Origin: Dichotomocladium elegans
Lineage: Eukaryota > Mucoromycota > Mucoromycetes > Mucorales > Lichtheimiaceae
Length of the DNA stretch: 64,000 nucleotides
Direction: 5' to 3'
NCBI GenBank assembly: GCA_025716815.1
Contig: JAIXMN010000014.1
Span: 917,399-981,398 of the forward strand
Shown: positions 9,667 through 58,055 of the stretch, in pieces
Layout of the letters: the number at the start of each line of letters is the position of its first letter
How positions within the stretch are numbered: the stretch's first letter is position 1
Translations under genes and position numbers: made by a program
The notes under the pieces: generated by a model
What the model was told of the DNA's origin: nothing
Seen by the model: the letters and a program-made list of their open reading frames with translations, nothing else
Databases searched by the model: none

Positions 9667-10681
9667 TATAGCAGATAATAATACAAGTAGCGATGAGAAA
9701 AACGCAGAGCGAGATAGAGAAGAGTGAAGGGGAAAGGGGGACGAGAGGATTGGGGGGTGGGCGTTAAATTTCTTGAGGGAGACCGGGTTACACTCGGACG
9801 CGGGGGAGAGGGGAAAGGGCTATTGGAGTTTTCTCAGCTATTCAGCAAAATGATTTTGCATTGTGCCTTGCCATCATTGCTGCCAGCCGCCGCTGGCTAC
9901 GTCGTCGTTATCATGACATCAAGAGAGGCATCAAAATCACCGCACGCTTCAGAACGCATCACTGTCAGCAGCGAGGGCAGTGTTTCTTTGTGCTTCAATG
10001 ATATGCTTTATGAATAGGAACATTGCCAGCTACTATGCCCGCACCCCACAAAACAAAGGCTTTCCTCCATGGATGGCGATTGACGCGAGTTCCAACGCAG
10101 GAAGTTCTTCACTGTGTAATACTGTACTGGGCTTGGGATGGTACTTCGCTCATAAGTGACATATGCTGGCTATTGATCCAAGTCATATGCTGCTCAACTT
10201 GTTGCTCGATAAAGACAGAGACTACGGGCGGGATTTTCTCGCTGGCAACCTGTTGGCAGGGGAAGGGAACTAAACACTCTATGTGCTAAGAAAATCGCAG
10301 TATGAGGACTCATGATTTCTCTGTTAATAATAAGCCCATTGGAATGCTTAGCAGAAGGTCGATCACCAAAAATGGCAGGAGGAGTGTTATCATTTGTCTA
10401 GTAGCTTCTGTTTTGAAAAGATGCTCAGGCTGGTCGCCAGCAGCATCAGTAGAAGCGTTGTTTTTTTGATCCTCGACCCACCCAGCATACCTCTTGCGCC
10501 TTATTTACGTAATCTCAGCAAACTCTTCTCTACGTTGCACAGAACCATTATTAGACATGGACAAGGAAATGCATAAATAGTTAATGAATTTATGAGCTAT
10601 CAGCATAAATATAAGTTGTCTGAGGTGCTCTTTCCTTTTTATTCCAACTCAATACTTGCCAAACCCACTACTAGATCGATA
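9667..10681. other. Intergenic, no gene recognised
   Basis: About 1 kb between the PP2C start and the Fanzor relic. It has GA-rich sequence near 9700-9830, which is likely the PP2C promoter. Several short ORFs show no family resemblance. Confidence 0.45.
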
Positions 10682-12530
10682 ATGGCCGAAGGCAAGGACC
10701 GCGTTGTCAATACCTCTTTGAAATCTGTTGGGTGGAAGCAGGAGTACCAGGAGAACCTGGAAAAGCTAGTACCGACTACCCAGTTTCTTACCACTCACAC
10801 ATACCAGTTGTCGCGCTGGATCCTCCTCCACAAGCTGGACCACAACCGCGACTTTGATTCCAGCGAGCTCCTCGGCCGAGCATTCTTTTATAAAGTATTC
10901 CTCAGTCTAGCCGGGAGAAAGGTCATGCGCGAGAAAGTTAAACCGTCGACCAAGGCCATTAGGACGCTCATACAGAGACACCTTGAAGATTACACGAAAT
11001 CTGCCGACATTGAGCCTGGGCAACACCGCAACATATCCCAGGTAGCGGCCTATGTCAGCACTGACATCATGACAGCCTACAAAGTAATGTTCAGCTGCAA
11101 TTTGGCGAGTGTTTCCGATGCGCTATCGACCCTCTGTTGAACGTATGCCAGCGGGAGGAAGCGACGCAGAAACCCTAATTTGAATAGCCTCCAGTCGGAA
11201 GCCCAGCACATCCTCGCTGAGTTATCATTGATCCTCCAAGCATACGGCGATACTGATGCGTTCGCAGAAGATGATATCTACTATGACATCAAGAATTCTT
11301 AGAGGCAAGAGGGGCAAAGTCAATCCAGTGCTTCCCTCTCCAAACTTCCTGGGTGCCGTCCCATAGGCACATCTACACGCGAATCCTCGGCCAGCATATA
11401 TCAAGGCATGCATCCACAAAAGCACCATCGATCGAAAGGGCATGGGGGAAGGTACCTGACCTCAAGTCCAAGCCATTCAAGGATAGGCATGGTAGAAGGC
11501 TCTTAGAAACGGTACAAACGGATGGAGTATCTATATCAATCATACTCAAGACTCTTGACGCAAAGAGGAACCTTAGTCGCAAGCAAAATCGGGCTAATGA
11601 CGATAGTACGAGGAGCAAGGACACTCGGAGGAGGCAGAGCAAGCTCGATCACTCTGCAGACTCTTCCTACATTCACGCCATCCCACAAGACGAGTCCAAA
11701 GACACCGAGGGAAAATGTCTTCTCATTGACTCGGGAGATCGATGTTCTTTATGGGATGAATGAGTTGAGCATGCCCGAGCTCCCCAAAATGCACCGGTAT
11801 ACGCGCAACCAGCGGGCCCGAAAAACAAGGGTGGCGCGCTTTCGGCAGATACGTGATATCGCCAAGGATCGTTATGATGACGAAAACACTATCCGGGGAG
11901 GCAGAGGCTAGACTTGCACAGATATCCCACAGCACCGTCAATGCCACCAGGTAAAAGCTCTTCGTCGAGACCCGAGGAATGGAATGGTCACTTCTCAGCA
12001 ACTTTTATAGCAGTACCACCATTACCCATACGGTATCAACGCACGCCGTGCACAGAAAGTATGGGCCGACAAGGAGCGACTGGGGGAAGCGTCGAGCTCG
12101 AAAAATGCATCCATATACTACTGATCATGAGGCGCACAACTACCCGCTCCATCGGAAATTGCGTCTCTCTGCTTATATCCACCAGAGACAGGCCGATGCT
12201 AGATGAGTGCGGACGATACGACACAGATTCGGAAGGGACACCATACTTGTCAGGGGAAATTGGGCTGCACCCATGGCCCGTTAGCATGAGCCTATACCTG
12301 CGGCAAGGATTGGCGGGAAATGTTCAAGAGACACGCGTTCAGGGTTTATTTGATTGACGAGTACAGCACCTCCGTGACCTGTCCCGAATGCTCCAGCCGC
12401 CCGGACTCCTTCAAGCGTGTCCCCCCAATCGGCGACCATGGCAGCAAGCAAAGCGTCCTGAAATTAAATGCCATGGGCTTCTAAGGTGTACAAACCTAAA
12501 TTGTTTGAAGTCCATGGAAGAGGTTACGGG
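10682..12530 (+). pseudogene. Degenerate Fanzor (eukaryotic TnpB-like nuclease), copy 1
   Basis: Broken relative of the intact Fanzor at 52,970. The N-terminal part (10682-11140) is readable and aligns with the intact copy (DRVVNTSLKSVGWKQEYQ against GRIIGVKSSIRGISWRQQY). It then breaks into shifted frames: DDIYYDIKN near 11265-11300, TDGVSISIILKT near 11520-11555, a degraded RuvC-I (LLIDSGDR, the Asp kept but the PGRRD context lost) near 11722, and LIDEYSTSVTCPECSS near 12352-12400. The last recognisable piece, GLLRCTNLNC (about 12475-12510), is continuous DNA with no intron, although the other two copies have an intron inside that Arg codon. The C-terminal RuvC-III part was not found. Clearly inactive. 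Confidence 0.8.
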
Positions 12531-40855: not shown

Positions 40856-41228
40856 GCTTTTGACAGTTGGGGGCTTGCAGAAAAAGGGCGGGGTTTTGGA
40901 TTGAATGAGAGGGATTTTTTTCCCTCTTCTGGGTTTACTAAACTATTCGAATTGTAACCCCTTCTGCATAGCTCTCTCGCAAGGCAGTAATAAGCTTGTA
41001 CGATATGATCGATAATAGTTCTAGGTCAACAAGAGCTTGTTATCATGCATCGTACGGATAGAGACACCAAGGACACCGACGCACTTAGCTAAAGATATAT
41101 TTACAACCTAGTCCGTCTTTATTTTCAGTCCACAAAAGATGGGAGATGCTTATGAGCCCTTGTACCACTCAATATGTTTCTTAAATATTTTTTTGCCAAT
41201 AGCCATCACTACAAAATTACATATTTCA

Positions 41229-42691
41229 GACGTCATTAATGCTCTCGGGATATGTATCGACGTCCCTGAAGACCCAGCTTATCTTCAGGAAGCTTTCGAC
41301 GCCATCCGGCCAATTTTCGATGCCTACACCAGTACCCACGCCTTTGACAACAATAGCATCTACTATGATGCAAAGGTTCGTCCAATGCAACATATGGCAG
41401 CCTTTTACCAGCTCGCTCTCCTTTTTGAGCGACTTCAGTTGCCTGCATTTGCCTGCTTCCCTCTTCGTCGGTCATTCTCTCGGTCATACATAATGATTGA
41501 CGCAAAGATCATATGGCAAAACATTCTGGGTCGCTCATGGACCGAAAAGGTTCCTTATCCTGGCGGATGGGATGAGGTCATCGATGTCCATTCGAAAGCT
41601 CTCAAGCCTGCAGAGAATGGAGTACTTTCGATTTCGTGGTACACTTGAAACGGATGGCGTAGGAGTCTCCATTATCAAGAAGAGAAGGGACAGGGACGCA
41701 CTCCCAAGAACCGCTGCAGCTCCGAAGGTGGAGCAGTCTCCATACGTAGATAGTTTGACCGCTGAGAAGCATCGAGAAATTGCAGGCCGATGCGTAACGG
41801 TGGATCCAGGGCGTAGAGATATGCTCTACTGTGTCCACGAGCGCTTGACTTCGCTTGAGCCTGTCAAGTTTCGCTACACCAAGCAAGAGCAAGACAAGAT
41901 CAGGAAGACGACGAAGTACCGACGATTGATACAACGACTCAAGGACCAGGACGAGGAAGTTGTGCGTGCTGAACTCGATCTCTCGGGATTCCGGAGCAAC
42001 ACTTTGGAAGTCGATGATTACTCCCGCTTCCTCGTTGCTAAGGCTGACGAAACTGCTGAAGAACAGCAGTTTTATGGATCAACAGGAACGACCTCATAAC
42101 CCCGGTCGCTTTTTGATGCGCAAACTTCGTCTGTCATCAACCTTCAACAAGCACCGTGCTGACCTCAAGCTCATCACCGAACTGAAAAGAAAATTTGGAG
42201 AAACCGCTGTGTTTGTGATGGGAAACTGGTCGGCTCCCCATGCCATATATCAGGAGCCCATCCGCGGGAAAGGGTTTAGAATGCTACTGCGGAAGAACGT
42301 GTTTGAGGTGTTCCTCATTGACGAGTACAAGACGAGCAAGTGCTGTCCAACCTGTCTCAATGAGAGCTTATCAACATATAAGCGGGTGCCAAATCCACGA
42401 CCAGCCCGTCGAGGAAGGGAAGAAAGATGGCGTTCGGAGGTTATATGTTATGGTCTCCTAAGGTAAGAAGTTTTCTCTCACTTTGAATGTGATAGTAATA
42501 TTTTCTGCAGATGCAGTCACCAAAACTGCAGTCCTCAGCGCCGTGTGTGGAACCGGGATTTGGCGGCATATCTCAACATGCACCACATCATCCGCAGCCT
42601 TCGTTCTGAAGGCTCAGTTCCCCAAAGATTTCGCCGAAGAGCCGTGACGGCTGCCAGGATCCAGGAACCAGAGCCTGACCAGCAAACGTAA
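41229..42691 (+). pseudogene. Fanzor (eukaryotic TnpB-like nuclease), copy 2, 5'-truncated and frameshifted
   Basis: Starts at the equivalent of about residue 215 of the intact copy (PAYLQEAFDAIRPIFDAY) and runs to a natural stop at 42689-42691. Recognisable in order: NNSIYYDAKVRPMQH, CFPLRRSFSRSY, RGTLETDGVGVSI, RuvC-I VTVDPGRRDMLYCVHE, VFVMGNWSAPH, and the zinc-finger region DEYKTSKCCPTC. Intron 42463-42511 (GTAAGA...CTGCAG, within an Arg codon) comes next, then CSHQNC and RuvC-III RRVWNRDLAAYLNM. Frame changes occur near 41615-41630 and 42060-42095, and the N-terminal third is missing. Catalytic residues are kept, so decay is more recent than in copy 1. Confidence 0.85.
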
Positions 42692-43400
42692 GATCACGAG
42701 GACCACGGGGCCCACATGGGCCACAACCTCTGCATTAGATCCTTCTACCAAATTCATTCCCCTATCCCCCATGCCACTTTTATTTTATATTTATCTATGT
42801 ATTACCTGCCTCAGAATAGCAAATATTGTTGACTTTGATGACATTTCTTTAGCCAATGTCTCAGATCTTCAGCCCACGTCTTGCCTGAGGGGCACCTGGC
42901 TAACGACATGAATGGACAAGTTAGAAACGAAAGGTAGCTGGATCGTCTCTTTTCCATGGCATTTGGGGGGTGTAAAAACTGGTCAATGTACAAAAGACAG
43001 TAGGTGTTAAATTTGGATGAAAAGAAAGTCAATATTATGAAGATTCATATCAGCTAAGATGATGGAAGAGAAGCTGAGGATGGGTTTAATAAACAAAAAC
43101 CAGTTACCTCAAATATCCATTATACAGGAAACCAAGCCAGGTAATGGCCAACAAAACCTATTATGATCCCACGAAGGGAACGTCCTCGATAGATCCAATT
43201 CTTATACGCATACACTTCCTTTCTAACCTATTTATACCGTGTGATCTGTGTAGAATTATCCCAAGTCGGATCACATTTGTTCCCCATTACGGCAGTTTAC
43301 TAAGCACATATGAGAATGAGAAACGAAACCTTCGAAATCACTTAGCTTTAAGCTATTGGATGCTTCGCTGGTTCGTGTCATCAACATCTCGTTTTCCAAG
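42692..43400. other. Intergenic, contains a short palindrome after the Fanzor relic
   Basis: A perfect GGCCCA-CA-TGGGCC inverted repeat lies at 42709-42722, 18 bp after the Fanzor stop. The rest holds no recognised gene. Confidence 0.45.
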
Positions 43401-44660
43401 AACCTATTGGGCTTTACTTTGCTCTTAACAACTGACCAGACTGCTCAGTTGGATTGAGTTCAGGAGAGCATGGTGGAATATAAGCACATCAATACCCTCG
43501 AGACTCGATGTATTTAGAGATATCCTGAGCCTTATGGATAGGTGCATTATCCATTACCAAACAATGGCCCTTCATATGTTCACGCTTATCCATCTCGTCC
43601 ATTATTGCCTTAAAGAAGCTGAGATGATGTACTGCTGTAGTTCCTCTGCTCGCAACTTCAGATTGACCTGCCCTCTTCTTTTCTTGATTGGTGGCTGCTG
43701 GAGTCTCAAGCTGCATTGAATGATGCCTGATGCTGAGATTGCTCCCACGATTGCGGTTGTCTTCGGTATTGTAACCACTGCAGGGGTCCCTTTGTTGGAC
43801 CACACCATGCTGCATTTCATGTTAATATGGAATCCGGACTCATAAAAAAAAAAAACGCAGCTTTTGAAGTCGATGTTGGTCCTATCCCATCTGCATACTC
43901 AGTCAAGGTGCTCTTGGATCTTCGCAGCACTATTCCTGTCTATAGGCTGAAACCGAACCATCTTTAACGACAAGTTACATAAGTTTTCATAAATCGATGG
44001 AGCATCATTTTAGATGCTTTGAGACTCTCAAGTCGTTGGAGCAGCTACTCTAGGACAATGGATGGGTCTTCATCAACGCATTCTAAAATAATGCGCTTAT
44101 GCTCTTCATTGAGAATACGCGAACGATCCCCCCGTGTTAGGTTTCTTAAAGATGCTGTCAGGGTCCTTCTCGTACTGTAATGCCCATCGCTGGGCTGAGC
44201 GTATATGGAGTCCTAGCAGCTGGCGCACTCAAGATCTTCTCAAACATCCGTTTGAAGAATCCGACCTTGTCTTGGTCAGTTTATGCTGTGTAACTGCGCT
44301 TGATCCCAGCTTCTTTTCATCCGAATGTCTGTATTCTTTCGCTGGGGAATGTGTGTGAGAGTAAGCTCAGGGTTATCTTTGCACAATATGCTACGCAGAT
44401 ATTCAGTGTGAGAACAAACGGATTGAAATGAGTACATTTCCTCATCAATGGCATAGTCCATAGGTTCAAAACAGCCACGCTCATCAACAACGTGAACTTG
44501 GCCATCTTGATAGAAAATTAGGTTGCCCATTTCAGAATGGGAAAATGTATAAAAGAGAAAGCTTTTTCTTTTATGCGACATCTTTCCGTGTATGTATGTG
44601 ACATTCGATTTGTCATCACGCGTAAAGATTTCTGGGCAAAATGCAATTTGTATTTTTGCG
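43400..44660 (-). pseudogene. Tc1/mariner-like DDE transposase, copy B (degenerate, split by a LINE at its 5' end)
   Basis: Minus strand. N-terminal leader FYQDGQVHVVDERG (44,581 downwards) matches copies A and D. Central pieces include WSNKGTPAVVTIPKTTA and IMDEMDKREHMKGHCLVMDNAPIH, which holds the second catalytic Asp. The end reads SPELNPTEQSGQL with the Glu kept. Frameshifts and stops occur throughout. The element's outer terminal sequence continues at 46,245-46,310, on the far side of the inserted LINE. Confidence 0.75.
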
Positions 44661-46244
44661 GCCGGTCTGCTGAACCAGTGATGTACCTCGGCTTCCCGCT
44701 CTGTTCTTCACAGGCACAACTTGAGTTCTCTGAGGCACAATTGCTCGAATTCGTGCGCAACGGATGCCAGCTCCATGTGCGACGCAATTTATCTGTACGG
44801 GATCGCGCCACCGTGCTTAACTGCTTACTTCTCTCCAGGATTTGGCATGTTCTTCGCGTCACAGCTTTTCCCAAGACCTCTTTCATGGCGAAGCTCCAAA
44901 CCATTTGCAGCACTTTCTTATTGCATCACATGTATCCTCCGGTTCGGTTTTCCATTCTTTGTCGCCCTCGAGACACTGGTGGTCTCGGGATCCTGGACCC
45001 CTCACTCAACAAAATGCTCTACAGTTACGATGGCTCCTCCCTCTCCTATGCTGCGAACCTTCTCTGGTTACTTCATGCTTGACTCACCATACGATGGCCC
45101 TTACAGAAGTTCCAAATGACCATCGACTGGCCTTCCGGTTTCCTCTCCTTCGACGGGGTATCACTGAGGATTTGTCGTCTTCGCTGTGCCTCCTCTTCCG
45201 CGCCTTTGACAGTCTTCCAGTCTCCGCCTCCAGTCCTCTTATCTCCTCGGCCACCGCGCTGGCGTTACCTCGCACTTCGGCTTGGTTTCCTGCTCCCGGT
45301 TTCCTGCCTTCATGCCCCAGCCTCCGGCGCCTCTGCGTTGGTGACATGTTCGCTTTCGATCCGACACTTCAACATCTGCGCCTGAAGACGCCAACTGAGA
45401 CCTCCCATCCTCGCCTCACCTCCTTTTTCCACGCCGGCCTTACCTCTGGACGCATTGTTCTCCTTCTTTTCTTTCTCCCGCTCTGCCTCCAGAGACCATC
45501 GAATGCAACGCCTCCTGACTCATTGGGCATTGTAGATGCCTCTCCTTTCCTGGAACCATTCCTCGATGACGACACTCATCCGCCGCTCACGACTCGCCGC
45601 TTTCGTGCTCTGGTGGGAGCGGCCGCTTCAACCTCTGCCCTCGCCTCACCGTCGACCCCTGCTGCATGGCGCTTATTTTGGTCCTTCCCACTCTCACCCG
45701 GCGTTCGCAATATCTGGTTTCGTGTTCTCTATGGCACCCTTCCGACGTCCAAACGGCTGCATCTCTTTAACCCGACCCTGATGCCCTCTCCGGCTTGTCA
45801 AATTTGCGGGGCTCCCCAAGACACCACCGAGAATTTCCTCTTCCTGTGCCCTCCCAAATGGCAAACGTGGCAGAACCTATGGGCCCGGTATACTTAGCCG
45901 ACCCTGACCATGCGGCTGTGCTGACCGCTCTCAAGACAATGGATTTTCTTTTGGACTCTTTAGCCCAGCGCAATCGCCGGGTCCGTCTCATTTCCGCCAT
46001 CCTCCAGGCCGTCTGGGCTGCCCATTGGGCACACATATTCAACTCCACACCCATGACATCAACTGCAACGACCCATTTTGCCGCAAACTCTGGCACCGTT
46101 CTCTTCGCGAACAGCCAATTCACTAAGTAGCAGATAATTTAAATTTTATTTCCTTTTCCCCCTTAACTTGGTCTCACTCCCAGCTCACCTCTGCATAGCA
46201 CGTGTGTCTGTTGTAAATAAACTAGGCTTTCGCTCATAAAAAAA
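44661..46244 (+). mobile_element. 5'-truncated non-LTR retrotransposon (LINE, Tad/L1-like ORF2 3' part)
   Basis: Codes for the C-terminal end of a LINE reverse transcriptase protein. First comes the region after the RT core, with MYLGFPL, the motif RNLSVRDRATVLNCLLLSRIWHVLR split over two lines of frame, and TGGLGILDPSL. Then comes a C-terminal part with FWSFPLSPGVRNIWFRVLYG and a CQIC...FLFLC zinc knuckle near the stop at 45,897. The frame shifts once near 45,010. The element ends in AATAAACTAGGC...A7 at 46,244. A 14/15-bp duplication (tttgtatttttgcg at 44,647-44,660; one extra T at 46,245-46,259) flanks it, as expected for target-primed insertion. Dead on arrival because of truncation. Confidence 0.82.
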
Positions 46245-46310
46245 TTTGTATTTTTTGCGATCCTGCGACTTTGATCTTGAAAAAGAGTGTATAATACATT
46301 TTTAATACGC
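46245..46310 (-). repeat. Outer terminal sequence of Tc1/mariner-like copy B
   Basis: Reads tttgtattttttgcgatcctgcgac then cttgaaaaagagtgtata on plus, the same order as at 13,138-13,212. It is the part of copy B cut off by the LINE. Confidence 0.7.
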
Positions 46311-46956: not shown

Positions 46957-47029
46957 TGGAGAAGCTGGGCGTCGATCCCAGTACCTCTCGCATGCTAAGC
47001 GAGCGCTCTACCATTTGAGCTACATCCCC
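46957..47029 (-). tRNA. tRNA-Ala (anticodon AGC)
   Basis: 73 nt on the minus strand and without an intron. It forms a full cloverleaf: GGGGATG acceptor, D-arm GCTC...GAGC, anticodon stem CTCGC-TTAGCAT-GCGAG with anticodon AGC, and T-arm CTGGG-ATCGACG-CCCAG. The discriminator is A73. The G3:U70 pair that defines alanine tRNAs is present. Odd points: a U6:U67 mismatch in the acceptor stem, and A instead of T at position 54 in the B box (GGATCGACGCC), both unusual for an active gene. CCA is not encoded. It lies inside a transposon-rich stretch and ends 170 bp before transposase copy C. Confidence 0.9.
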
Positions 47030-50205: not shown

Positions 50206-51230
50206 GTTAAACTGTGCATGGTATGTGGAGTATACAGTTTCTGTCATGATCTGATGTATTGCAAGCGTTGCATGCTGGACAAGGAGATTATATACTTCCT
50301 TATGGCTAGTGATGGGCATCTACTAGCAAGACTGTTTTGCTGGCAGCCGGCTGTATCGACGTGGGAATGCCTTTGGTGCAAATACTGTAAGTTACGATAG
50401 TGGAAGATTACGTCATGAATGCGAGTGTACTCATTCTTTTTTATTTTCTTTGCATTTCTTTCTGTTTTGGCGGTTGTAGACATATCTTGCCATGCTTTAG
50501 TCTGGCCAGACTTCCAGCTGAACTGAGCAGCTGCACTTGTTCCACTGATCACGGTGTGGGAGGTGGCCAAGTAGTAATGGCAATTACAGAGTGTCTACAA
50601 CTGCCGTGTTTGGCGTCGGTCCGGACTGTCTTCATCTGATGCAATGGAGCCGTTGCATGCTGGATAAGGAGCTCGTGTTCTACCTTAAAGTTAGCCTTTC
50701 CATTGTTTGGCGAGGCTGCTTTGCTGACAGTTGCCTGTATCGACGTGGGAATGCCTGTGGTGCAAATACTGTAAGTTACGGTAATGGAAGGCACGCTATG
50801 GATGCGAGTGTACTCATTCCTCTTTATTCCTTCTTTGCGTTTCTTTCTGCTTTGGCGGTTGTAGACATATCTTGCCATGCTTTAGTCTGGCCAGACTTCC
50901 AGCTGAACTGAGCAGCTGCACTTGTTCCACTGATCACGGTGTGGGAGGTGGCCAAGTAGTAATGGCAATTACAGAGTGTCTACAACTGCCGTGTTTGGCG
51001 TCGGTCCGGACTGTCTTCATCTGATGCAATGGAGCCGTTGCATGCTGGATAAGGAGCTCGTGTTCTACCTTAAAGTTAGCCTTTCCATTGTTTGGCGAGG
51101 CTGCTTTGCTGACAGTTGCCTGTATCGACGTGGGAATGCCTGTGGTGCAAATACTGTAAGTTACGGTAATGGAAGACACGCTATGGATGCGAGTGTACTC
51201 ATTCCTCTTTATTCTATCTTTGCGTTTCTT
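50206..51230. repeat. Tandem repeat, 385-bp period, about 2.7 units
   Basis: Units at about 50,206-50,590 (diverged), 50,591-50,975 and 50,976-51,230 (partial; units 2 and 3 almost identical). Each unit has a conserved GTAAGTTACG and a following pyrimidine tract ending TTGTAG, like an intron. The first unit reads VKLCMVCGVYSFCHD and CKRCMLDKE, a cysteine-pair pattern, so the repeat may derive from duplicated exons. No intact ORF spans it. Confidence 0.8.
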
Positions 51231-51249: not shown

Positions 51250-51488
51250 CTTTTCTACTTCAGCAAACATGAGCGACAATGAGCCAGTAAATGTTCTTTG
51301 AAGCTTGGAGAAGTACTACCACGACTATTTCACGGAGTGCCTCTCGACAAATATCAAGAAGAAGAAGAAAAAGTTGGTGATCGTCGAGTATGAGTTGAAT
51401 GAAGTAGTTTGACAAAGGCTTCGAAAAATCCCAAAATTAGGGCGGCCGCAACTGGTATAGCTAACTCACACCTCTCTGAAGAAGTATA
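51250..51488 (+). pseudogene. 5' fragment of the multicopy gene family, cut by a transposon
   Basis: Matches 56,185-56,425: ATGAGCGA start, intron-like GTAAATGTTCTTTGAAG, then KKKLVIVEYELNEVV and the GCGGCCGCA-T/CTGGT block. An in-frame stop follows NEVV. Sequence identity ends at the exon 2 donor, where transposon copy D begins. Confidence 0.75.
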
Positions 51489-52130
51489 CACCATTTTTCA
51501 AAATCAAAATCGCACCCTGCCAGTTTTGAAGTCGCAGGATCGCAAAAATACAAATCGCATTTTTGTGCGGAAATCTTTATGCGTGATGACAAAGCAAAAG
51601 TCGCATACATACTCGGAAAGATGTCGCAAATCCATCTCATCCTTATGACTCTTTCTCTTTATAAACTTTTACATTTTGAAATGAGCAATCTATTATTTTA
51701 CAACGATGGCCAAGGTCATGTCGCTGATGAGGAAATGTACTCACTTCAATCCGTTTGTTCTTACACTGACTATCTGTGTAGCATATCGTGCAAAGATAAC
51801 TCTGAGTTTACTCTCACACACATTCCCAAGCGAAAGGATACATACATTCGGATGAAAGAAGCGGGGATCAAGGGCAGTTACACAGCATACACTGATCAAG
51901 GCAAGGTCAGATGTTTCAAACTGGTTTTTGAGGAGGTATTGAGTGCATCAGCTGCAGCAAAACAGCTAGGACTCCATGTTCGTTCAGCACAGCGATGGGC
52001 ATTACAGTAAGAAGAGGACCCTGACAGCATTTTAAGAAATGTAGAAGCAGAGGGCCGATCGTGTATTCTCAATGAAGAGCATTTATTGTTCTAGGATGCA
52101 ATTTTCGCTAAAAATAGCCGTACTCAAAAG
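51489..52130 (+). pseudogene. Tc1/mariner-like transposase, copy D (5' end and N-terminus only)
   Basis: Begins with a terminal sequence TACACCATTTTTC...gaagtcgcaggatcgcaaaaa, the reverse of the 13,138 and 46,245 ends. Then comes the leader MSNLLFYNDGQGHVADEE, the linker PKRKDTYIRMKEAGIKG and the helix-turn-helix ASAAAKQLGLHVRSAQRW, stopping at 52,008-52,010. No DDE core follows. It is inserted at a TA in the multicopy-family fragment to its left. Confidence 0.75.
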
Positions 52131-52536
52131 AATCCTATATCGAGAAGACTAAGTTTATTCTTGGAAAGAACAAAGAACTATGGGAGTGTGCTTCTTTGTC
52201 AATGAGCCATTTAGCCTGGGGATTGTAACTCCGAAGCTGATTATCAAATGGAATAATGAAGTAATAGCTTTCAGGAGACTCCTGTGTTCTCATTGTAATA
52301 TTCAGAGAAATTATTCATTATGTACCTACACTTTCTGAACGTATGGATAAGGATGACAGCAGTATCGTGTTTTGTTGTGTTGTAAGAGACTGAGAGAGTA
52401 CGAAAAGAAATACAATCTTCCTACACTACACAAGTGCCGGATATGTATCGGATTATTCTTGAGATGGTCTCTTGGAATTACTTGTTGGAATTGTTTGGGA
52501 TTTCATTGTTGATTTCAGACCTCCTTCACGTCGATA

Positions 52537-52724
52537 CAGTGGCCGCCCGTTATAGTGATACCCTCGGTTCCAGGAAATCGCATCACTATAATGAATTATC
52601 ACTATAATGAATTATCACTATAATGAATTGGAATAAGCCCTACCTGGCAATTTTGTCCTTCATAAAGTGTATCGCTATAACGAATTATCATTATAATGAA
52701 TATCACTATAACGAGCGGCCACTG
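52537..52724. mobile_element. MITE 1, 188 bp, TA target duplication
   Basis: Terminal inverted repeats of about 24 bp (CAGTGGCCGCCCGTTATAG and its mirror with one mismatch), flanked by TA on both sides (52,535-52,536 and 52,725-52,726). Internal tandem copies of tatcactataatgaat. No coding capacity. The CAGT ends, TA duplication and CGTTATA core point to a Tc1/mariner-pogo parent, which is not seen in this window. Confidence 0.88.
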
Positions 52725-52790
52725 TAAAACCTCATTAAAGAACCCAGTGGGAAAAAGAAAAACACTGTGGAGATGGATCATTGCTGACAC

Positions 52791-52800
52791 TATAAATAGT
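52791..52800 (+). promoter_or_regulatory. Probable TATA box of the intact Fanzor
   Basis: TATAAATAGT, about 180 bp before the Fanzor ATG and the best TATA-like match in that leader. Confidence 0.45.
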
Positions 52801-52969
52801 GATGCTCAAGCAAACTGTCCCTTTCCATTATCCACATACAAAAATAGAGCCCATACAGCCTACAGAAAATAACACAGCACCACATTTACGGTTGAAAGCT
52901 AATACGGCCGCTTTCATACTCGGCTCTGCGATACTAAGAAATAATATACCCTAGGTCTTCACCCACCAA

Positions 52970-55168
52970 ATGGCCCAACCCCACCGCCCCGTCATTCCCG
53001 AAGGCATGCGCACTGGCCACAGCATTGACCGCACTGGCCGTATAATTGGGGTGAAATCGTCCATACGGGGCATCAGCTGGCGACAGCAGTACCGTGAACG
53101 TCTGTATCAGTTGGTTGACCTTGTCCACAACACCACAACACAGGCGTACGCGTTCGCCAAATATATTTTCATCAACGAGGCAGCGCGCGATCCAACTTTT
53201 AACATCCAGGAAAACATCACGGAGAAGTTCTTTTCAGAAGTTTGGCTCTCCATGGTTAACAAAGCCGAACGCCGCACCCAAGGTGAAACTGCCCGCATCC
53301 GAGAACTAATTAATCGCCACAAGGATGAGTACCTTCGGATATCCGGATACGACAGGCCTGCGTTCCCTTATTCCCAGCAATGTTCTTCTTACGAAGGCAC
53401 CAAGATTTATACTGCTTACGTGAATAATGTCCACATGCTGTTCGGGCAACACCTTCGGCGTGTCATCAATGTCATCCTGAATCTTCGTCAGCGAAAAGCC
53501 GACCGCAAGCGAGAGTTAATCGCACAGGGCCTAAGCCCCGATCAAGTACGCCAGGACCTTTATGAAACCATCACCCGGCATGCCACAGGATTCAAGCTAG
53601 CAATTGCCCGTCGAGGTGTTTTGAGGGAAGACATTAATGCCGAACCTGGATTTCTTCGGGAAGCATACGATATCCTACAACCTGTCTTAAACGCTTACCC
53701 CCGAAACCACCAATTCCAACACCAGAGTATCTATTACGACGCCAAGGCCAATCCTGTTAAGCATTTCAATGCCTTCTTCCAGCTTGCACGCGTTTGTCAA
53801 CAGAACGGAATACGCGGATTCAACTGTTTTCCACTTCGTCGCTCGTGGTCACCATGCTACATGGAGATCGATACGAAAATCCTTTGCTACCATATCCTGG
53901 GCTGCAAAATGGAATCCCACACAAGCAATATGGAGTACTGGAGACGTGTTGTAAACCTGAAATCAAGAGCTTTCAAACCCCAAGAATCCGAGCTGCTCCA
54001 ATTCCGTGGGACTATTCACACTGACGGCGTCGGTGTTACTGTGTTCAAGAAGACAAATGGCCTTCAATCGGGTTTCGGACAGAGATTTGGCATCCAGAGC
54101 GAAGATATCGAATACGTCACCCCACAGATAGTCCGGAACGAAGACTATAGAGGACAATGGGTCACCATTGATCCTGGCAGAAGAGACCTGTTGTATTGCG
54201 TTCATGAGAACTCGTCACCCGACAACCACCAGACCTTCCGATATACAAAGCAGCTTCAAGATCATACACGGAAGATCAAACGGTACCGCAGACTCCGAGA
54301 ACGACTCAAGTTGGAGCGACCCGAGGTCGCGTTGGCTGAGCAGAATCTATCTCAATTTCAAAGTCATACGCTTTCCGTGCCCAACTACGACGGATACCTC
54401 GCCGCCAAGAATCGGGTCTCTGTAGTTCTCAAGTCTTTCTACGCGACAACCACTACGAACCACCCGAACCCGCAATTTCTTTTTCGAAAACTTCGCCTGT
54501 CAGCGTTTTACAAGAAGCAGCAAGCAGATGAAAAGCTTCTGGACTCTTTGAATGCGAAGTTTGGCAGTAGATCCGTTTTCGTGATGGGAAATTGGTCTGC
54601 GCCGCATACAAGATATCACGAGCCTATCCGTGGTGTCGGCTTCCGGCGGCTGTTGAAGAAGAACAATTGCAATATTTATTTGGTCTACGAGTACAAGACA
54701 AGCAAGTGCTGCCCTGTATGTGACAATGAAAGCCTTGCTACCTTTAAAATGGTTCCTAATCCACGCCCATATCGACGACCCGACAATCCGCTCACGATCT
54801 GCCATGGCCTGCTACGGTATGAAGGACGGGCATGTTGTGTTATACTTCCAAAAGATTATAATACAGTATTTTGATGTTTCAATAGATGCACAAATCAAAA
54901 CTGTACAGCAGGCATGGCAGAGGGTGTTTGTCAACCAAGGTTATGGAACCGGGATCTGGCGGCGGCTCTCAACATGCATCATATCCTCCGGGGTCTTCGG
55001 GAAGATGGTATCATCCCAGCAAGGTTCCAGAGAAGAAATGCTGCACAAGCATCCGCAGCTGGTGGAAGGCCACACTCACCTGAACCAGAGCAGCGCAACG
55101 TGAGACTACGACGGGCAAGGCCAGGAAGGCCACGAGGTGCACGCTCTGGCGGGTCGAGACGACCGTAA
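52970..55168 (+). CDS. Fanzor: eukaryotic TnpB-like RNA-guided DNA endonuclease (apparently intact)
   Basis: Two exons, 52970-54816 and 54886-55168, joined inside Arg616 (intron GTATGA...AATAG, 69 nt), giving 709 aa. The N-terminal half has helix-rich, Arg-rich segments and FFQLARVCQQNG. Then come RGTIHTDGVGVTVFKK and RuvC-I VTIDPGRRDLLYCVHE (Asp401). After a coiled region (RKIKRYRRLRERLK) come FVMGNWSAPH and VYEYKTSKCCPVC, where Glu574 matches the relocated glutamate of Fanzors and Cys581/Cys584 start a zinc finger. Cys617 and Cys622 (CTNQNC) close it after the intron. RuvC-III RLWNRDLAAALNM supplies Asp639. The tail is strongly basic and Arg/Gly/Pro-rich. Known Fanzors are RNA-guided nucleases carried on eukaryotic transposons. 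No partner transposase lies in the same unit. Expression and activity are unproven. Confidence 0.9.
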
Positions 55169-55330
55169 CCCCAACCAAGAATTTTCCGCGTCAGTTATCG
55201 CTGACGCACCCAGGATAACCACAGCCCTTCGCGGCAAGCCCCCTTCCTTTGGAAGGACGGTGTGTTGTAAGTCAACGGGATTGGAGAAGGCGTAGTGTTT
55301 TCTGCTGACTAACAGGGTTTCATCCATGGA
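55169..55330 (+). ncRNA. Candidate Fanzor guide-RNA (omega/fRNA) scaffold
   Basis: Directly after the Fanzor stop lie two perfect hairpins: GCGTCAG-ttatcg-CTGACGC (55,188-55,207) and CCTTCC-ttt-GGAAGG (55,242-55,256), with further GC-rich pairing between. TnpB and Fanzor guide scaffolds overlap or follow the 3' end of the nuclease gene, so position and structure fit. The guide boundary and transposon end are not identified. Inference only. Confidence 0.4.
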
Positions 55331-56200
55331 TGCGAAATCTTTTTACCTATTGATACGACAAATTTATATAATTCTATGCGACATTCTTCTTGTATTTTGC
55401 ACGACATTATTTTATCTTGTTTACGACATTTATTTTTGAAAATAAAGTATGCACTATTTCAAGAAACATTTTGCACGTGTAATCGGCGATTGTTTACTTT
55501 GCACAGTCAATATATTACACATGACCAATGGGCATACAAGTGGGCATTGATATATTGAAAATCGATAGCCCACTGAAAACGGTACCTCTGCTCCATACGC
55601 CTTAGCATAGCCTCATGTCCACGCAGTAAACCTGGTCTGTGCTGCCGAAAACCTGCATGGAAGGTCTATGGGATGGGGCAGAGCCAAATGCAAGTGGACG
55701 GGGGTGTCTTTGCTGAACAAACTGATCCCATGGTGGATTAAGCACTTTGGCCACTATAAGAGAATCAACGACAGACCACCGGCATGTGCAGCACAAAATG
55801 AAGACGGAAGTGCCCTTACCCAATGACTGCCCCACCCGGCAGGCCGGTATATGTCATAAGCTCTCTTCCATGGCGTTAGGCACGGGTAATATACCCAATC
55901 TTAAAAAATAGGAACGACTCTTAGGTGCGAATAAAAAGCAAGACAATATCATATGGGTTCATACAAAAGAGGTTGCTCGACTCTCGATTACGTGTAGGAA
56001 AGCAAGGCAAAGAAGTGGAGGATAAAACTCTCACTCTGTTGGAACAAAACAATTTCCGCTTATATCCTGCATATTCTCAAAATTAGTTGCGCGCGTCATA
56101 TCCACCTCTGAGTGCCAAATTTTTCCTTGCGGACAAATCTATGAGTCCGCATGAACAGATCTTACGCGTTCCGTGCTCCCTCTTTCCTACCTTTACAAAC
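55331..56200. other. Intergenic, no gene recognised
   Basis: Holds a short series of cgacat-type motifs (55,350-55,435) and AT-rich sequence. Short ORFs at 55,602-55,835 (-) and 55,376-55,558 (+) have no family resemblance. Confidence 0.4.
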
Positions 56201-58055
56201 ATGAGCGAGAATCATCAAGTAAATGTTCTTTGAAGATTGGAGAATTCATTAATAAGACCATTTCACGTAGGACCTCTCGATAAAATTGTTAGAAGAAGCA
56301 AGAAAAAGAAAAGAGCTGACGATCGTCGAGTATGAGCTTAACGAAGTTGTTGACAAAAAACTCAAGAAAGCTCAAAAAAAAGCGGCCGCAGCTGGTACAG
56401 CTATCTCACACGTCCCTGAAAAAGTATGTTTTTACTGAAATATATCTACCCATGCTGACTTGATGATTTCAAACTTGTAGGTCGAAGAACAAGATGGTGT
56501 TTTTATACCCGGCCTAGACTGCTCGGTTGGATCTCATATCAAGAACAAAGCTCTGGAATTGCATTCCTCCTTCAAATCGAGCGATACAAACAAGCAGACA
56601 ATAATAAGGTACAGGATTTTCAAGAAGAACTTTGCCATAAATTTTGGTTGTTCATATAGACCATCTAGGTTTTTCGTTTTTTTTGCTTCAAATTCGAATA
56701 CAAATTTTAGTATTTCGCTGCTATCCTTTTGTCAAATTTAAAGGCAATAGCAGCAAGAACATTTCAATCGAGACTATAGGTGAGTCTTCCTTCTCCTCTT
56801 TTTACACCAGAATAGTTTTGGGAGGCCAACCATTTATGTTTCATTCTAATTTCAAAGGAAGAAGAGAAACGAAATACTAAAATTTGTATTCGAATTTGAA
56901 GCAAAAAAAACGAAAAACCTAGATGGTCTATATGAACAACCAAAATTTATGGCAAAGTTCTTCTTGAAAATCCTGTAGTATGTTCGCCTGATTGTATAAG
57001 TACATCAAAAACTGACGTGATTTCCTCCAGTCTTGGTCTAAACTCGATTCTTAGCCTGACATTAAACTATCCAGAAGGCCAGAGCACGCTTTTTGACCCA
57101 GCTCAATGGCGTGATTTGAAAAGAAAATTCCCCAGAAGAAAATATGAGACGAGCCAGTACGATCATATCAAGTATAAGCTGCATCTTTTGTTATCATGTC
57201 ATAAAGTTGGCAATTCGTGGAACAAGAACTGGTACAAGCTGTATCGCATAACGAAGGCTCTGCAGAAGGAGTATGACGCAGAAGAAAACGGGGAATGCGA
57301 AGAAGAAGATTTCTGTCTTTTTTTCATCGAATCCATCCTGAAGCTCCAAAAACACCACGCGTACCTTTTCGATGATAACGTGGACAAGTCCAAATGGGAC
57401 TATATCTGCAAGTTGTGGTCGCCAATCATGGAAAAACTGTTCGCAGGCTCTAGCTTAAGGCTCAAGTGGTAAGCTGCTTTACTTGATTTCATATATCATT
57501 ATACATGGTTACTCTATTTACTTTTATCTATTGTAAGGGGAGATACAAAACTGTCTCTGGCTGACATTGAAGCAACGAACGATTTAAAGCCTGATTTAAG
57601 AATCTTGCAAGATGAAATCGTTCAGCGCTATAACCGAGAAACCGACATTGCAGCTTTTGAGGTGTCCAAAGAAGATCCTGGGGTCCAGAAGTTCCAATCG
57701 GACCATTGCAAGTTGATGTTGGAGTGTAAAACCATTATTGACATGTATATCAGCAAAGGATTTGACGTCGACAATGTTGACTGCATACAAATTTGCGGCC
57801 TAGACATTATTATTTCAAACCTTTGTCTTTCTGCACCAGGGCTGTATATTGGAAATGAGTTATTTTATGGGTCTATCGTCAATTCTCTTCCCCGGATGGA
57901 ACAAACGCTTGATATTGCGCTAAATCTTCTGGCTTTTAGGGTAAGCTGTTTGCCAGAAACAATTGATATATATTAATTTCTTTTTATAGGATGCGGTTAT
58001 GAAAGTCAAGAGCAACTACCGAGAGGAAAAGGCTACTATTAAGCAAAAAAAATAA
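56201..58055 (+). CDS. Member of a multicopy, uncharacterised fungal gene family
   Basis: Six exons: 56201-56218, 56271-56423, 56481-56608, 57031-57468, 57538-57940, 57990-58055; all phases agree, giving 401 aa. The sequence is charged and helical with no signal or membrane segment. Recognisable stretches are LTIVEYELNEVVDKKL, WDYICKLWSPIMEKLFAGS, WGDTKLSLADIEAT, DLKPDLRILQDEIV, CKLMLECKTIIDMYIS and LSAPGLYIGNELFYG. I recall similar large families in Mucorales genomes but cannot name the function. After the stop the original frame reappears (KKGWVRGTWIAYRD, ending LPPAPPNLVA at 58,198), so the protein probably once extended further and was cut by indels near an A8 run at 58,045-58,052. Intron 3 (56,609-57,030) contains MITE 2. 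Fragments of relatives lie at 48,331 and 51,250. Confidence 0.65.
56612..56975. mobile_element. MITE 2, 364 bp, 106-bp identical inverted repeats, TA duplication
   Basis: Arms 56,612-56,717 and 56,870-56,975 are exact reverse complements (start CAGGATTTTCAAG), with a 152-bp unrelated spacer and TA on both flanks. No coding capacity. Identical arms mean recent insertion or ongoing arm conversion. It sits at the start of intron 3 of the surrounding gene. Confidence 0.93.

Follow-up and report, generated by a model that had tools for sequence, protein, structure and literature searches.

The window analysed here is a 64,000-nucleotide stretch of the Dichotomocladium elegans genome (GCA_025716815.1, contig JAIXMN010000014.1, positions 917,399–981,398 of the forward strand). 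It contains a transposable element of about 3.97 kb that carries a gene for a 709-residue protein, in our judgement almost certainly a Fanzor1 nuclease. A preliminary description, made from the letters alone, had proposed a two-exon Fanzor gene with complete RuvC and zinc-finger residues and an upstream TATA-like box. The frame was recovered unchanged when rebuilt from the sequence, ending in a TAA stop; all residues named in that description (D401, E574, D639, C581/C584 and C617/C622) were present at their positions, and the TATA-like box was found as CTATAAATAG (Table 1).

Identity and structure of the Fanzor1 gene

Direct comparison with solved Fanzors, by sequence and by predicted fold, was decisive for the identity of the protein. 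On both measures the nearest solved relatives were the Fanzor1 of Parasitella parasitica (PpFz1) and then SpuFz1, and the window protein was more similar to solved Fanzor1 proteins than to those of the Fanzor2 or TnpB groups, which ruled out a protein of the Fanzor2 or IS607 kind. When the predicted structure was superposed on solved Fanzors, PpFz1 was the best fold match, with 37% identity over the structural alignment; the fold so established is that of exon 1, and the model is weak at residues 575–593 (predicted local distance difference test score (pLDDT) below 50). A stop-free run of 639 residues matched PpFz1 with an E-value of 6.5e-118 and is well past chance expectation, and a chance open reading frame (ORF) or an assembly duplicate was ruled out, the flanks differing between copies. 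The check by profiles suggested earlier came out divided: no Pfam or NCBIfam model fitted the 709-residue protein at cut-off, Pfam returning only a TNB domain below it (E 0.18–0.26), whereas direct matches to solved Fanzors were obtained. PF26935 is precomputed on 101 of the 108 homologues; a local Pfam search gave it for none of three proteins.

The Fanzor1 motif given in PMC3627910, D-X(125,275)-[TS][TS]-X-X-C4 finger-X(5,50)-RD, is present as D401, T577–S578, the cysteines C581, C584, C617 and C622, and R638–D639, with D401 and T577 separated by 175 residues and C622 and R638 by 15. The relocated RuvC-II glutamate, E574, stands beside the TS motif. Of the 108 homologues, the 67 with at least 500 residues were aligned; in them the RuvC-III position is Asp in 33 of the 39 proteins with a residue there and Asn in 4. 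Sequence, homologues and fold thus agree in supporting a Fanzor1 with the full set of RuvC and zinc-finger residues, as had been proposed.

Left unspliced, exon 1 stays open to position 54874 and then lacks RuvC-III, and seven further GT–AG pairs in the stretch scanned also maintain an open frame. The splice at 54817–54885 is preferred because only that choice yields the zinc-finger run CHGLLRC-x4-C, which is the majority form among 40 aligned proteins. Among the frames read, an intron is found at the corresponding site of L041, a 56%-identical paralogue from the same genome, and of a decayed copy at 41–42.7 kb of the window. Its length is 69 bp in all 16 intact copies of the family described below, 15 of which have a GT donor.

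The transposable element, its copies and its ends

A search of the genome (39.4 Mb, 122 contigs) gave at least 80 Fanzor matches, 17 of which cover residues 1–615 at ≥98% without a stop. We aligned 20 of the best copies with their flanks, ranked by Fanzor protein score, a ranking that favours intact copies. Sixteen (L009–L024, the window copy included) have an unbroken coding sequence; L025 and L028 carry stops, L026 carries indels, and L027 is open with a GC donor. Many other listed copies are degenerate, being truncated or interrupted by stops. Across the element the intact copies diverge by 0.88% on average (0.31–1.57%). Judged from these alignments, the Fanzor gene travels as cargo in a transposon that has multiplied recently; besides the window copy, 15 of the 20 aligned copies are unbroken. 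L027 (C79:408300-418200) joins a Fanzor of this family to a left part 97% like that of a transposase-bearing type, L042, and reads as a left-end exchange between families. The palindrome nested in the 5' leader has similar sequence in the aligned copies, and also to the left of copy L019, in its flank.

The left end ties the element to Tc1-type transposons. Positions 2–597 of the element are 75% identical to positions 683–1320 of L042, only the left ends having been compared, and the L042 ORF encodes a 475-residue Tc1-type transposase (DDE_3, E 1.8e-30) whose closest named relative among the best 120 of 534 matches is from Rhizomucor pusillus (Mucorales; 83%). No DDE domain was found in the element, the Fanzor copies holding only the N-terminal transposase part, and an autonomous transposon was rejected on that ground. 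The element looks non-autonomous because all that it retains of a transposase is a DNA-binding remnant, and we consider it very probably a non-autonomous Tc1-type element. In L041 (C79:1296000-1301800) a longer, decayed transposase lies upstream of the Fanzor gene on the same strand; in Rhizopus microsporus, a Fanzor and a transposase of this family have consecutive locus tags (RMATCC62417_10189 and RMATCC62417_10190), and their contigs are of equal length. Putative inverted terminal repeats, compared by eye, are imperfect (TACACCATTTTTCAAAATC and TACTTTATTTTCAAAAATA).

The dinucleotide before the inner TA of the left end is nearly fixed in the family. We read 38 left tips of the family and scored 35 as TA, one as GA and two as undecided; with L061 (TATGCACT) read as TA and the truncated L063 excluded, TA precedes the inner TA in 36 of 37 scorable ends. 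The inner TA itself precedes CAC or a variant of it in nearly every copy. In 20 relatives read by eye, the preceding dinucleotide is CA in 14 (12 CATA, 2 CATG), TA in 4 and something else in 2; as background, TA in the window is preceded by TA in 9.2% of cases and by CA in 7.7%. On the other side, AAAG is followed by TA in all 25 copies read and by TAT in 23. A duplication of four bases, TATA, was not adopted, as there is variation at the right and next to none at the left. For SpuFz1 the measured target-adjacent motif (TAM) is CATA, with CA conserved before the left repeat (PMC10432273), and for PpFz1 it is ATN (PMC11423790). Since the SpuFz1 TAM parallels the conserved dinucleotide before the left end, the predicted TAM of the window family is TATA. 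Two copies, L022 and L024, have an unusual left tip, TATATAGC, and right flanks that begin TATAGC, and L010 has the left tip TATATACC and a right flank TATACC; cut-and-paste would not be expected to couple the left tip with the right flank in this way.

No clean empty site was recovered when 16 joined flank pairs were searched in the genome; one paralogous place was met (L085, C35:678126-678292), with unrelated sequence at the site. In the window, a 77%-identical repeat at positions 56167–56424 is suggestive only.

The omega-RNA of SpuFz1 lies at the right end of its element (PMC10432273), and the right end is also the better conserved here: against L041 the last 21 nt are identical and 26 of the last 30 match, compared with 21 of the first 30 at the left, and window positions 55267–55384 match the L041 element at 75%. 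Over the whole window, Rfam at gathering thresholds reported only a tRNA (46957–47029, minus strand).

Probable selection on the Fanzor gene and its possible role

The 16 intact copies differ in the Fanzor coding sequence at 46 synonymous (S), 38 missense (N) and no nonsense sites, counted as differing sites rather than as events on a tree. The expected N:S is 2.15 under the coding sequence's own mutation spectrum and 2.50 under the noncoding spectrum, so that the observed N:S amounts to 0.38 of the neutral value in the first case (p 1.7e-5) and to 0.33 in the second (p 6e-7). Variants shared by at least two copies gave 6 N and 12 S (ratio 0.23). Selecting copies by their left ends lessens the bias towards intactness and does not abolish it, since 3 of 15 copies were dropped for a disrupted or partial Fanzor match. 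The 12 of 15 copies retained at ≥98% left-end identity gave 26 N and 34 S (0.35, p 7e-5); a smaller set, 8 of the 11 best, gave 17 N and 27 S (0.28, p 5e-5). Three older or broken copies carried 51 N, 58 S and 3 stops (0.41), indicating constraint in their branches too. Between the element and L041, codon positions 1, 2 and 3 differ at 32%, 27% and 56%.

The transposase remnant of the same 16 copies behaved differently, with 10 N and 3 S (ratio 1.2, p 1.0). Its frame is shifted or shortened in four copies (L010, L011, L013 and L016), has lost its stop in L012 and is 4 residues shorter, in frame, in L021. Gaps are absent from the 2,199 columns of the gene and form 29 patterns in the other 1,776 columns; their absence is partly a matter of choice, because copies were ranked by protein score, and N:S is less affected. 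We think it likely that the Fanzor gene is maintained by selection. A constrained Fanzor beside a drifting remnant suggests that a working Fanzor is important for the spread or persistence of the element.

On balance we favour a young, high-copy, non-autonomous Tc1/mariner-type element with Fanzor1 as its only intact gene, combined with a cut-and-copy mechanism, and hold this whole to be moderately probable. A related autonomous element would supply the DDE transposase in trans, and the Fanzor element would be moved by cut-and-paste at TA sites. Its right end would be transcribed to an omega-RNA whose 3' tail is flanking host DNA; the loaded Fanzor would recognise the just-vacated site (the predicted TAM TATA, then flank) and cut it, and repair from an element-holding copy would restore the element at the cut site, so that loss of Fanzor would cost copies. 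The cut-and-copy role, taken by itself, we place slightly below an even balance. More tentatively still, Fanzor may be a selfish retention device: the transposase-less element would have multiplied with only working-Fanzor copies propagating, the TAM shifting from CATA in the transposase-bearing relatives to TATA.

Several observations weigh against this account. Constraint extends to singleton variants (32 N, 34 S, ratio 0.44), which would be expected to be neutral if selection acted only through transposition. The neutral control is small, with 13 changes in the remnant; the aligned copies were ranked by protein score, a bias only partly relieved by left-end selection; and sites rather than events were counted. 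Among the loci read, no transposase-bearing element had tips identical to those of the Fanzor element. A suggestive paralogous site at 56,300–56,430 of the window, read by eye with a splice donor ...gaaaaagTATG at about 56,425, fits insertion into TATG with a single shared TA, which makes it less likely that the target held all four bases of TATA. As to the guide RNA, single-sequence folding of the 3' region did not rise above shuffles (z 0.36 and −0.67), and 4 of 19 copies (L010, L014, L022 and L025) carry deletions in the terminal 70 nt on the right, which is odd if the full scaffold is located there; with these two results the scaffold stays a candidate by analogy. In the intact copy L015, the splice donor is changed to AT. 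Lastly, the window copy itself has a private tyrosine, Tyr573, directly before Glu574, where the other 15 intact copies have Asp.

A simpler account would make Fanzor mere cargo, with the transposase recognising the ends and the apparent conservation arising from a young burst and selection of intact copies. The element does carry the left-end sequence of transposase-bearing relatives, its intact copies are little diverged, and many further listed copies are truncated or carry stops; the ranking by protein score, together with the constraint on singletons, hints at some picking bias. However, S exceeds N in the left-end-selected copies too and among shared variants, the remnant in the very same copies is unconstrained, and the youth of a burst does not by itself bias N:S, so we regard passive carriage as unlikely. 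We rate as somewhat less probable again a Fanzor kept for other ends, either acting in trans on transposon relatives or foreign DNA or serving the host. Such targets are conceivable: L016, read by eye, sits at an old relative's left end (the alignment starts 32 bp into the flank), which would make its predicted guide transposon sequence; at C46:1029409-1030645, family left and right ends lie about 1.2 kb apart, too short for a Fanzor, an arrangement that we liken to the ghost elements of Spizellomyces; and GtFz1 and others are without repeats (PMC10432273). Against this, the copies retain sharp ends, and their flank-derived guides vary from copy to copy, which suits targeting of the element's own site.

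Two narrower questions bear on the cut-and-copy reading. The conserved TA in the family, and CA in the relatives, could be part of the element or a taste of the transposase rather than a TAM, an explanation that we hold just short of evenly balanced. The right flanks are likewise biased towards TAT, and the paralogous exon–intron site fits an element carrying an extra TA. Yet the dinucleotide differs between the family (TA) and the transposase-bearing relatives (mostly CA), so that transposase taste alone is not an easy explanation, and the equivalent place in SpuFz1 is a measured TAM. The other question concerns the activity of the window copy. The preliminary description held that nothing in its frame is broken and that it could be functional; the frame is indeed unbroken and the Fanzor1 residues are there, but with seven residues, Tyr573 among them, departing from the majority sequence of the 16 intact proteins, functionality is less secure than identity. 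Whether Tyr573 impairs catalysis in this copy while its siblings are active seems to us evenly poised. In the 54 homologues that have a residue there, position 573 is Asp in 40, Asn in 10, Ser, Val, His and Gln in one each, and never Tyr, and it adjoins the catalytic glutamate; on the other hand it tolerates Asn, and the predicted model is weak just past it.

Outside the element, the window holds two further Fanzor1 relics, one of them tail to tail with a decayed Tc1-type transposase (Table 1). A facing arrangement of Fanzor and transposase also occurs in L042 and, by coordinates, at C57:1660083-1664698; in it the 3' end of Fanzor does not coincide with the end of the element.

Table 1. Coordinates of the Fanzor1 gene, its element and other features in the window.
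Feature	Position	Strand	Remarks
Fanzor-bearing transposable element, ~3,965 bp	51485..55449	+	inter-copy similarity ends sharply on both sides; left outer TA may be flank
Left tip TATACACCATTTTTCAAAATC...	51485..51515	+	inner TA 51487-51488 taken, by homology, for a target duplication; outer TA in 36/37 scorable copies
5' part of Tc1-type transposon	51487..52081	+	75% identity over 664 columns to transposase-bearing L042
109-residue transposase N-terminus remnant	51681..52010	+	helix-turn-helix stretch, no DDE domain; HTH_23 below cut-off, E 0.093; constraint undetected
Nested palindromic element, 192 bp	52535..52726	.	26-nt arms TACAGTGGCCGC..., 96% complementary; within 5' leader
TATA-like CTATAAATAG	52790..52799	+	170 bp before ATG; identical in 16/16 intact copies
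Fanzor1 exon 1	52970..54816	+	matches Fanzor1 chains from REC/WED to RuvC-I, relocated Glu and first cysteine pair (domain names from literature)
RuvC-I Asp401 codon	54170..54172	+	Asp in 64/66 homologues with a residue at the position
Residue 573 codon	54686..54688	+	Tyr in window copy; Asp in 15 other intact copies
Relocated catalytic Glu574 codon	54689..54691	+	Glu in 50/54 homologues with a residue at the position
Intron, 69 bp, GTATGA...CAATAG	54817..54885	+	GT-AG; from frame rebuilding
Fanzor1 exon 2	54886..55168	+	second zinc-finger pair, RuvC-III Asp639, Arg-rich tail, stop
3' noncoding region and right end	55169..55447	+	candidate guide-RNA scaffold source by analogy
Right tip TTTATTTTTGAAAATAAAG+TA, short palindrome	55429..55449	+	identical 21 nt in L041; TA read as target duplication
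Flank adjoining right end	55450..55470	+	predicted guide of window copy, from the SpuFz1 rule (PMC10432273)
Third Fanzor1 relic, strongly decayed	10667-12522	+	
Decayed second Fanzor1	41112-42682	+	stops, frameshifts; tail to tail with decayed Tc1-type transposase
Decayed Tc1-type transposase/transposon	43263-46293	-	left tip at 46293; split by ~1.6 kb
tRNA gene	46957-47029	-	Rfam
Three tandem units, ~385 bp each	50241-51176		just left of element
119-nt inverted repeat	56610-56728 and 56859-56977		97% complementary, 130 nt apart

Relation to known Fanzor elements

Parasitella parasitica is a Mucorales fungus. Its Fanzor1 (PDB 9cf0-9cf3; Parasitella is linked with Mucorales in PMC11423790), the best match in sequence and fold, shares the RuvC, TS and cysteine motifs with the window protein. 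PpFz1 carries an insertion of about 100 residues (FRI) that binds cyclophilin, whereas the window protein has 26 residues in the stretch where PpFz1 has 127, and is in this sense a nuclease of the PpFz1 type from which the cyclophilin-binding insertion is missing.

The hosts of two earlier elements, PGv-1 and PUl-4, presumably differ from D. elegans, to go by the name prefixes. Both belong to the Mariner superfamily (Bao and Jurka 2013, PMC3627910): PGv-1 has a Fanzor1 together with a Mariner transposase, and in PUl-4 a Fanzor1 by itself is enclosed by Mariner repeats and TA duplications. SPu-1 of Spizellomyces punctatus, the source of SpuFz1 (PDB 8gkh), is likewise a many-copy Fanzor1 element with putative TA duplications, and in the published accounts no transposase was found between its repeats and a conserved dinucleotide precedes the left repeat, as in the window element (PMC3627910, PMC10432273). 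It differs in being about 2.1 kb long, with a single ORF and CA at that place (TAM CATA), where the window element has 3.97 kb, an intron, a transposase remnant and TA. Within D. elegans, L041 has a 56%-identical Fanzor and shares the 21-nt right tip and the left-end family; it differs in still holding the longer decayed transposase.

The occurrence of Fanzor1 in mariner-type elements, some having a transposase and some lacking one, has thus been known since 2013 (PMC3627910), and a many-copy Fanzor1 element was described in 2013 and 2023 (PMC3627910, PMC10432273). The role of Fanzors in eukaryotes is called unknown in a paper that shows Fanzor activity (PMC10432273). The word Fanzor was not met in the Mucorales papers of a limited literature search, from which we draw no wider claim. 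At least 16 unbroken, near-identical Fanzor copies, an unconstrained passenger and older transposase-bearing relatives amount to a natural experiment, in which sequence alone can address whether the nuclease aids its own element, with a TAM and a guide predicted for each copy. To what is known of Fanzor1 in mariner-type elements, this family adds a constrained nuclease set against a drifting passenger within one genome, and a family-specific tip.
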